From NCBI GenBank assembly GCA_030651765.1, contig JAUSBY010000010.1, positions 1-56,461 on the forward strand: a stretch of 56,461 bases of DNA, written 5' to 3'. The notes under the pieces are model-generated. The model had not been told where the DNA came from, did no database searches, and was given only the letters and a program-made list of their open reading frames with translations. This document shows positions 48,087 through 50,428 of the stretch, in pieces. Made by a program: the position numbers and the translations under genes. The DNA is from Coriobacteriia bacterium. GTDB taxonomy: Bacteria > Actinomycetota > Coriobacteriia > Anaerosomatales > Anaerosomataceae. Each line of letters starts with the position of its first letter. Position 1 is the stretch's first letter.

Positions 48087-48294
48087 GATTCCCACCCCCC
48101 GTGGGTCTAAGATGATGCGCGCCGGTCCCTCGGGATGCTGCCGGTGCGCCACCGGGGCGGATTATACCCCTCGGGCGGGTCGGGGAGTGTTTGGCGCGTC
48201 GGCGGATCGGCGCGGGCGGTGAGTACCGAGCTGCTCCCGCTTTCCGACCCGTACGACTATGCTGTCGGTGACCGGAGTGAAAGGAGACGCACCT

Positions 48295-48786
48295 ATGCCA
48301 CGCGTAGCGCTCGACGCACTCGCTCCCGAGTTCAGCCTGCCCGATCTCAACGGCGACCTGGTGAGTCTGGCGGACTTCAGGGGCTGCAGGATCGTTCTCC
48401 TGGTCTTCAACCGGACCTTCGCTTGACCGTTCTGCCGTAGGCATATGGCGCAGTTGCGCCATGACTACGCGCGGTTCGAGGAGCGGGATGTCGAAGTCGT
48501 TGTGGTCGGTCCGGAGGACGCGGCAGCGTTCTCGGAGTACTGGCAGGCCGAGTCACTGCCGTTTGTCGGCATACCAGACCCCACGCACAGTGTGTTGAAG
48601 CTGTACGGGCAGGAGATAAACCTGTTCAAGCTGGGGCGGATGCCAGCCCAGGTGCTCATAGACAAGGCGGGAGTTGCGCGCTTCGTCCACTACGGCCACA
48701 GCATGGATGATATCCCCGAAAACGACGAGATCCTGGCCCTGGTAGACGAGATGAGCACCACGAGCAGGACGGAGAGAGGAGCCTGA
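48295..48786 (+). CDS. AhpC/TSA-like peroxiredoxin with in-frame TGA (probable selenocysteine 44)
   Basis: Read through the TGA at 48424-48426 this is a 163-residue thioredoxin-fold peroxiredoxin-like protein. It starts PRVALDALAPEFSLPDLNGD, reaches the active-site strand VLLVFNRTFA, then TGA-PFC-RRH, where peroxiredoxins of this type have Cys-Pro-x-Cys, and continues in the same frame through VEVVVVGPEDAAAFSEYW, LPFVGIPDPTHSVLKLYG and AQVLIDKAGVARFVHYG. Sec at the attacking position with a resolving Cys three residues on (U44-x-x-C47) is the arrangement known from bacterial PrxU. AAGGAG precedes ATG 48295. Its stop is one base before the heliorhodopsin ATG. Standard calling would report only a headless frame from 48445. 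It should reduce peroxides or act as a thiol redox partner. Confidence 0.85.
48436..48469 (+). other. candidate bacterial SECIS hairpin in the peroxiredoxin gene
   Basis: CGTAG (48436-48440) pairs with CTACG (48465-48469); after a small internal loop ATGGCGC (48445-48451) pairs perfectly with GCGCCAT (48456-48462), closing on the loop AGTT. The loop begins 26 bases after the TGA and has G at position two, within the known bacterial SECIS limits. Twelve base pairs in a 34-base coding segment is striking. Confidence 0.72.
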
Positions 48787-48787
48787 A

Positions 48788-49549
48788 ATGGTGGAGACTG
48801 AATCGAGATTCCAGCGGCTTCGGCTCTACAACGTCGTGATGGGTCTCATCCACCTGGTGCAGGGGGCGGCGATCGTCGCGCTCTCCGAGCCGTACGCCGT
48901 AGCGGTGACTGCCTCCTGGATGAACACCCGACCGGGTCCGGGCGTGTTCAGCCCGCCGCAGCTCTACTTCGAGTACGAACTCGGATACGCCGTGGCGCTG
49001 TTCTTGTTCTTCTCGGCAGCGGCGCACTTCGTCATCGCGGGGCCGGCCTACACAGGCTACGTGGCCGGTCTGAAGAAGAACCGCAACTACTACCGCTGGA
49101 TCGAGTATGCGTTCAGCTCGTCGCTCATGGTCGTGCTCATCTCGTCGCTCGTCGGCATCACCGACGTCGCGGCCCTCACGGCGCTGTTTGGTGTGAACGC
49201 TTCGATGATCCTGTTCGGCCTGCTGATGGAGAAGTACGAGCAGCCGGGCAGGCCCGACTGGACCGCGTTCATCTTCGGCTGTCTCGTTGGCGTCGTGCCC
49301 TGGATCGCGATTGCCGACTACCTCTGGGGCCCGGGCGCGAGCGACATGACCCCCACGTTCGTGTACTGGATCTTCGTGTCGATGTTCGTGTTCTTCAACA
49401 GCTTCGCCGTCAATCAGGTGCTGCAGTACAAACGAGTAGGCAAGTGGAAGGACTACCTGTTCGGCGAGGCCGCCTACGTGTTCCTCAGCCTGTCGGCCAA
49501 GTCGCTGCTCGCGTGGCTCGTGTTCGCCAACGTGCTCATACCGCAGTAA
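48788..49549 (+). CDS. heliorhodopsin
   Basis: The 253-residue protein is a seven-helix retinal protein of the heliorhodopsin group, not type 1. The Schiff-base lysine is K238 (LSLSAKSLLAW) in the last helix, the counter-ion is E106 (YYRWIEYAFSSSLM), and the two cytoplasmic-side histidines are H22 (GLIHLVQ) and H80 (SAAAHFVIAG), matching H23, H80, E107 and K241 of the reference HeR-48C12 within one to three positions. Heliorhodopsins sit inverted in the membrane and act as light sensors or enzyme regulators rather than pumps. GAGAGGAG precedes ATG 48788. It is directly downstream of the peroxiredoxin gene, so they are co-transcribed. No retinal-synthesis gene (brp/blh) is in the window. Confidence 0.93.
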   Translation: MVETESRFQRLRLYNVVMGLIHLVQGAAIVALSEPYAVAVTASWMNTRPGPGVFSPPQLYFEYELGYAVALFLFFSAAAHFVIAGPAYTGYVAGLKKNRNYYRWIEYAFSSSLMVVLISSLVGITDVAALTALFGVNASMILFGLLMEKYEQPGRPDWTAFIFGCLVGVVPWIAIADYLWGPGASDMTPTFVYWIFVSMFVFFNSFAVNQVLQYKRVGKWKDYLFGEAAYVFLSLSAKSLLAWLVFANVLIPQ

Positions 49550-49565: not shown

Positions 49566-49937
49566 TCAGCTGGCAGCTTTGCGCACGATCGAGGAGAGCT
49601 TGGCCTCGGTCGCGTCGTCGAGCGCGGTCAAGAACCACGAGGACTCACGGAGCTGGTGCGTAGCGCCGTCCTCGAGGGTGAGGTTCGCCTTCTCGGTGAG
49701 GCCGAACGTCATGTACTCGTCCGCGCGGAAGAAGCAGATGACCTTGCCGTCCTTTGCGTACGCCGGCATGCCGTACCACGTGGTCGGCTGGAGCGCCGGT
49801 GCACTGTCCATGATGAGCGCGTGGAGCCGCTCGCCGATGGCGCGATAGGGCTCCGGCATCGCGGCGATCTTCGCGAGCGCCGCGGCCTCGCCGTCGGCCT
49901 TCTTCGCGGTCGGCTTGTCCGGCTTGTTCTCGGCCAT
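49566..49937 (-). CDS. DUF1801/YdhG-like protein
   Basis: The 123-residue protein carries a Lys/Ala-rich head (KPDKPTAKKADGEAAA) and then the small alpha/beta domain of the DUF1801 group (ALQPTTWYGMPAYAKDGKVI, FRADEYMTFGLTEKANL). The biochemical role is unknown. It is convergent with heliorhodopsin, with 16 bases between the stops, so the two do not share a transcript. Confidence 0.75.
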   Translation of the reverse strand: MAENKPDKPTAKKADGEAAALAKIAAMPEPYRAIGERLHALIMDSAPALQPTTWYGMPAYAKDGKVICFFRADEYMTFGLTEKANLTLEDGATHQLRESSWFLTALDDATEAKLSSIVRKAAS

Positions 49938-50119: not shown

Positions 50120-50428
50120 GTGGCCAACGTAAGGAACTCCTCGTACTCGGTGGTGGGCTCGGTCGAGTCGGACGGGACGGTGCGCAACTCCTCGTACTCC
50201 ACCGTCGGATCCGTCGATGCGAGCGGCAACGTGCGCAACTCCTCGTACTCCACCGTCGGCTCGGTGGATGCCAGCGGCAACATCAGGAACTCCTCGTACT
50301 CCACCGTCGGCTCCGTCGACGCGAGCGGCAACGTGCGGAACTCGTCGTACTCCACCGTCGGCTCCGTCGACAGTGACGTGGATCGACAGCAGGCAGGTGG
50401 CGCGGCCCTGCTGCTCCTGCTGAGCTAG
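50120..50428 (+). CDS. small protein built of five 17-residue repeats
   Basis: The 102-residue protein is five nearly identical units of the form VRNSSYSTVGSVDASGN, followed by VDRQQAGGAALLLLLS. The alternation of polar and beta-branched residues with a glycine turn suggests a small all-beta propeller or solenoid; five-bladed beta-flower proteins with NSSGSTIGRI-type repeats are similar. No catalytic motif is visible. AAAGGAG at 50107-50113 sets GTG 50120. The hydrophobic tail ALLLLLS may touch the membrane. Function is unknown. Confidence 0.8.
   Translation: MANVRNSSYSVVGSVESDGTVRNSSYSTVGSVDASGNVRNSSYSTVGSVDASGNIRNSSYSTVGSVDASGNVRNSSYSTVGSVDSDVDRQQAGGAALLLLLS
50129..50383 (+). repeat. five tandem 51-bp coding repeats
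   Basis: Units start at 50129, 50180, 50231, 50282 and 50333. The middle units differ by only a few bases, mostly silent, for example GTGCGCAAC versus ATCAGGAAC. Near-identity at DNA level indicates recent duplication or ongoing homogenisation. Confidence 0.9.

Follow-up and report, generated by a model that had tools for sequence, protein, structure and literature searches.

Organisation of the locus

The window analysed here is a stretch of 56,461 nucleotides from an uncultured Coriobacteriia bacterium of the family Anaerosomataceae (assembly GCA_030651765.1, contig JAUSBY010000010.1), and it holds two neighbouring genes on the same strand, one for a peroxiredoxin-like (Prx-like) protein with a predicted selenocysteine (Sec) on the 5′ side and one for a heliorhodopsin (HeR) on the 3′ side. 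The features of the pair are as follows.

48281..48286, + strand: Shine-Dalgarno-like AAGGAG of the Prx-like gene, from the sequence
48295..48786, + strand: Sec Prx-like protein, 163 aa, AhpC/TSA fold with UxxC, Sec44 from read-through of the internal TGA, final stop TGA at 48784-48786
48424..48426, + strand: in-frame UGA, predicted Sec, U44 of U-P-F-C, TGA kept in 54 distinct homologues (gathered by a pattern that demands it)
48432..48474, + strand: predicted bacterial SECIS hairpin, fold z -2.5
48445-48451/48456-48462, + strand: predicted apical stem of the SECIS, loop AGUU at 48452-48455, 25 nt after the UGA
48775..48781, + strand: Shine-Dalgarno-like AGAGGAG of the heliorhodopsin gene, within the 3′ end of the Prx-like frame, from the sequence
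48788..49549, + strand: heliorhodopsin, 253 aa, PF18761 E 2e-92
49499-49501, + strand: retinal lysine K238 of HeR, found by residue check together with the counter-ion E106, H22 and H80

The coding part of the Prx-like frame (48295-48783) ends in a stop codon that is separated by a single base from the HeR ATG at 48788. The pair has a DUF4328 gene in divergent orientation as its upstream neighbour and a convergent DUF1801 gene, 16 bp beyond HeR, as its downstream one, and these orientations mark it as a two-gene unit. A promoter and terminator scan detected no site, with nothing terminator-like seen between the two genes, and no Rfam families were detected in the window. On this arrangement the two genes very probably share one transcript. 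The coordinates, the frames, the lone in-frame TGA, the gap, the two ribosome-binding sites and residues H22, H80, E106 and K238 of the initial annotation were all verified, and the operon layout that it predicted is upheld, with a good ribosome-binding site ahead of either start codon. The 1-bp gap also places the pair within the definition of HeR oxidative-stress operons used by Bulzu et al. 2021, namely a redox gene on the same strand at less than 10 bp. Further along the window, 50120-50428 encodes a short protein made up of five near-identical repeats (VRNSSYSTVGSVDASGN).

The downstream protein is predicted to be an intact heliorhodopsin. It scores 309 bits against PF18761 (cut-off 26.7), with profile positions 1-242 covered, and 319 bits against the NCBIfam HeR model (cut-off 100), and its PDB match is 48C12 (E 1e-72), with H22, H80, E106 and K238 aligned with H23, H80, E107 and K241 of that protein.

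Selenocysteine decoding of the in-frame TGA

A genome scan returned 48 loci of the Prx-like gene from Actinobacteriota, Chloroflexota and a few other phyla, mostly with a TGA at the identical place. The loop of the predicted SECIS is AGTT in 54/54 of the distinct homologues and the stem is retained, with a compensatory two-sided change in one of them (L087), while the Leu codon within the loop is TTG in 54/54, compared with 16% TTG at the other Leu codons of the same genes; relatedness inflates these counts, yet the 54 sequences span phyla and GC contents of 30 to 66%. Two homologues (L094, L096) carry Cys in place of Sec. Purifying selection is seen on both sides of the TGA, the part after it giving dN 0.034 and dS 0.26 against the sister species. 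The window genome encodes selA (605 bits) and selB (373 bits) side by side, selD (370 bits) about 10 kb from them, and a tRNA-Sec with a UCA anticodon. The homologues, the AGUU hairpin, the biased Leu codon and this set of genes uphold the earlier reading of the TGA at 48424-48426, and its decoding as Sec is well supported.

ORF finders using Table 11 return only the frame downstream of the TGA (113 aa, ATG 48445), as would fit a decayed peroxiredoxin gene cut short by the TGA, leaving that frame or HeR alone functional, but the TGA, the UPFC motif, the SECIS hairpin and two-sided purifying selection are all kept across phyla and the genome has complete Sec machinery, which makes a broken gene extremely improbable. 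A pseudogene in general, and likewise an alternative genetic code for TGA, were considered and ruled out by conservation, the constraint on the SECIS and the Sec machinery.

Two observations on the Sec machinery may be added. The same assembly has another tRNA-Sec at one end of a 12.6-kb contig (G000:C13:12178-12637), next to a selB tail that shares about 84% identity with the main selB, and this is either a second copy or a foreign contig. Four other genomes (G020, G082, G116, G136) have the TGA-containing Prx-like gene and yielded no full-length selB or selD, reflecting either incomplete assemblies or lost Sec decoding.

A UxxC peroxiredoxin-like protein

The upstream protein matches AhpC-TSA (PF00578, E 4e-22) as well as Redoxin, and its AlphaFold2 model (pLDDT 86) adopts a peroxiredoxin fold, the closest folds being Bcp1 (Z 20.7) and AhpE (Z about 20). 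Its active-site motif reads FNRxFx-U-PFC, in which U44, P45 and C47 are invariant across homologues and the Thr at -3 of Sec44 is replaced by Gly in about half of them. Published work treats proteins with a thioredoxin-like UxxC as a Prx-like family distinct from the Sec peroxiredoxins (TxxU), and the sequence assigns the protein to this Prx-like family. In profile alignments to the solved peroxiredoxins 3drn and 2ywn, the Thr of PxxxTxxC is matched by Sec44 and the peroxidatic Cys by Cys47 (the 3drn chain has Ser at this place, presumably through mutation), and in an alignment to a thioredoxin-family protein U-P-F-C falls on C-P-Y-C. The Pro and Thr that precede the peroxidatic residue of a canonical peroxiredoxin are not found together here, the loop being without Pro; an AhpC-TSA domain (pfam00578) with UxxC, the mark of Prx-like selenoproteins, is present. 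The model for SelL-related redox proteins (NF040769) is matched in its N-terminal part only, at 76 bits against a cut-off of 120.

The initial annotation had placed the TGA at the peroxidatic position of a Sec peroxiredoxin. As the protein belongs to the UxxC Prx-like family, this is probably off by three residues, the TGA preceding a peroxidatic position that is held by the conserved Cys47, and the name gives way to UxxC Prx-like protein, with Sec outside that position. The window protein shares the Prx fold and a Sec in the active-site loop with Sec peroxiredoxins of the TxxU type (PxxxTxxU, e.g. that of Eubacterium acidaminophilum), but it has no PxxxT, its Sec falls on the Thr position and Cys47 would be peroxidatic. 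What it has in common with the Prx-like family (Sargasso Sea 'Prx-like', GOS 'Prx-like 1', pfam00578) is the AhpC/TSA fold, UxxC in place of TxxU and a bacterial SECIS after the UGA, and the clade of the window is set apart from that family by a fixed FNRxFxUPFC..HM motif. Its chemistry could be that of a peroxidase, a disulfide reductase or both.

Linkage and co-occurrence in other genomes

Adjacent pairs of the two genes occur in four genomes (G000, G020, G434/L090 and G403/L059) and in both gene orders. The Prx-like gene precedes HeR by 1 bp in the window (G000), and the two lie 80 bp apart in G020. RBG_16_64_13 (L090/G434) has the reversed, HeR-first order within a head-to-tail cluster of catalase, heliorhodopsin and Sec Prx-like genes (L090:2678-5498), HeR being preceded by the catalase gene at a distance of about 80-100 bp, which varies with the choice of start, and followed by the selenoprotein gene after 10 bp. 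In the fourth genome (L059/G403) the C-terminus of HeR at the contig edge is followed after about 180 bp by the Sec Prx-like gene and then by a SOUL haem protein, beyond which lie genes resembling a histidine kinase and a response regulator. On the HeR tree a long distance separates the protein of the window from that of L090, and given this distance and the reversed gene order at least two joinings of the genes look independent. By a simple count the chance of at least two adjacent pairs among the 23 genomes with both genes is about 3e-4, the expected number being about 0.02. In G020 HeR is followed after 9 bp by the gene for a Tll0287-GGDEF diguanylate cyclase that carries a CxxCH motif (L055, from about 6331), and the Prx-like, HeR and c-di-GMP enzyme genes may share a transcript.

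The search of related genomes proposed at the outset thus found linkage that recurs in four genomes of distant actinobacteria but is not general. Adjacency is seen in 4/23 co-occurring genomes. In a sister species of the same genus (L052/G013) the pair is split by 1.5 kb with an opposite-strand DUF1295 gene in between, and a MarR gene takes the place of the Sec Prx-like gene upstream of HeR; in G116 the two genes are about 10 kb apart. A general linkage is ruled out by the 17/20 HeR genomes of the family of the window that are without the Sec Prx-like gene. Among Chloroflexota and other phyla HeR is present in 9/32 selenoprotein genomes, with none linked. The linkage is therefore rare but recurrent.

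Co-occurrence is more widespread, as HeR is present in 23/25 of the Sec Prx-like genomes from two actinobacterial classes. In the class of the window (398 genomes) HeR is found in 42, the Sec Prx-like gene in 11 and both in 10, so that HeR is present in 10/11 genomes with the selenoprotein and 32/387 without it (Fisher p 6e-10, uncorrected). The class of L090 (249 genomes) has HeR in 83, the Sec Prx-like gene in 14 and both in 13, that is HeR in 13/14 against 70/235 (Fisher p 3e-6, uncorrected). Within the order of the window the figures are 10/11 against 31/58 (p 0.019, uncorrected for ancestry), and since this excess is modest, part of the co-occurrence signal is ancestry. The capacity to decode Sec is unlikely as its sole cause, because SelB, in 51/69 genomes of the order, is far commoner than the Sec Prx-like gene, in 11.

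Where the Sec Prx-like gene does not adjoin HeR, the genes next to it encode regulators, OhrR-like in L075 (scanned) and, by eye, in L066, and a PerR-like Fur in L061, as well as rubrerythrin (L143), GPx (L080) and, as a fragment, photolyase (L058). These peroxide and light neighbours, with the catalase, HeR and selenoprotein cluster of RBG_16_64_13, favour peroxide and light stress as the setting of the pair, and the peroxide and photo-oxidative context suggested earlier is upheld by them. A Staygreen (PF12638) gene adjoins the selenoprotein gene in L082; the neighbour in L092 is similar by eye and unscanned.

Proposed role of the gene pair

We propose that the two genes form an operon in which a thiol or selenol oxidoreductase of the Sec UxxC type and a heliorhodopsin are made together against photo-oxidative stress, a reading that we consider probable. 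Co-expressed from what appears to be one transcript, the pair would provide a cell that has the light receptor with an enzyme acting rapidly on peroxides or disulfides in antioxidant defence or thiol repair. The substrates of this enzyme would be peroxides and probably also organic hydroperoxides, and the pair would serve in light stress. Sec decoding, the Prx fold, an intact HeR, the gene order and linkage that recurs in distant actinobacteria are each well supported by computation. As most HeR genomes are without the Sec Prx-like gene, the best reading is that it is an optional partner of HeR and that the pair is an optional photo-oxidative-stress module.

The rarity of the linkage could also mean that the two are incidental neighbours, accessory genes of aquatic, low-oxygen actinobacteria that were joined a few times by rearrangement or transfer without functional coupling. 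The wide variety of HeR neighbours (MarR, SOUL, SDR, DUF1295, DUF1801, GGDEF), the DUF1295 insertion within the pair of the sister species and the modest within-order association would all fit such a history; the independent, tightly spaced adjacencies in opposite gene order, at least two where chance predicts about 0.02, and the repeated presence of peroxide or light genes beside both HeR and the Sec Prx-like gene do not, and we judge it unlikely. A closer coupling would be a direct light switch, in which HeR binds the selenoprotein at its cytoplasmic face and the photocycle raises or lowers enzyme activity. HeR has been reported to bind and regulate the products of adjacent genes, namely glutamine synthetase (PMC9529153), the ABC transporter OmrDE (PMC11109279) and photolyase (PMC9769723), and by analogy direct control of the Sec Prx-like protein is possible. 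The 1-bp and 10-bp spacings in two distant lineages are in keeping with such a switch, but most genomes with both genes have them unlinked and the selenoprotein occurs mostly without HeR outside Actinobacteriota, so that it appears rather unlikely. That a light-driven change in HeR would recruit or activate the UxxC enzyme at the membrane, as a rhodopsin-controlled selenium redox switch, seems quite unlikely.

The proposed stress operon stands close to published ones, as HeR has been linked to glutaredoxin, GSHPx and catalase genes, with peroxiredoxin mentioned, and a role in photo-oxidative stress has been proposed for it (Bulzu et al. 2021, PMC8612252). As in those operons, HeR lies a few bp from an antioxidant-type gene in Actinobacteria; unlike them, its partner in the window is a selenoprotein. 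The glutamine synthetase, OmrDE and photolyase cases also have the partner beside HeR on one presumed transcript, and there physical and light regulation has been shown, which for the window pair is a hypothesis. None of the ten HeR neighbour groups of PMC11109279 has a peroxiredoxin, and no selenoprotein partner of heliorhodopsin was found in the open-access literature searched, an absence that is weak evidence. The link of HeR to redox genes is thus already published, and a selenoprotein as its partner appears to be new.

A tightly linked, small soluble selenoenzyme offers the photo-oxidative-stress hypothesis of HeR output a specific partner, and linkage in both gene orders, once clustered with catalase, hints at how HeR is used. 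Were direct redox gating of the selenoprotein true, it would be a concrete biochemical output for HeR in actinobacteria. Standard gene callers split Sec frames at the TGA, so such a partner would be missed or appear as a fragment in ordinary neighbourhood surveys, and earlier counts of HeR partners may therefore be too low.

Other neighbours of heliorhodopsin

Several further genes recur beside HeR. MarR-family regulators lie 28-55 bp upstream of it in L029 and L126 (scanned) and in L028 (by eye), an arrangement seen in two classes of Actinobacteriota. DUF1295 genes are near HeR in L052 (scanned), with look-alikes in L023 and L116, in Actinobacteriota and Chloroflexota, and DUF1801 genes adjoin it in the window (49566-49937) and, downstream of HeR, in L115. 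SOUL haem-binding proteins are encoded near HeR in two lineages (L059:816-1427, and upstream of HeR in L019), which suggests a possible link between tetrapyrroles and light.
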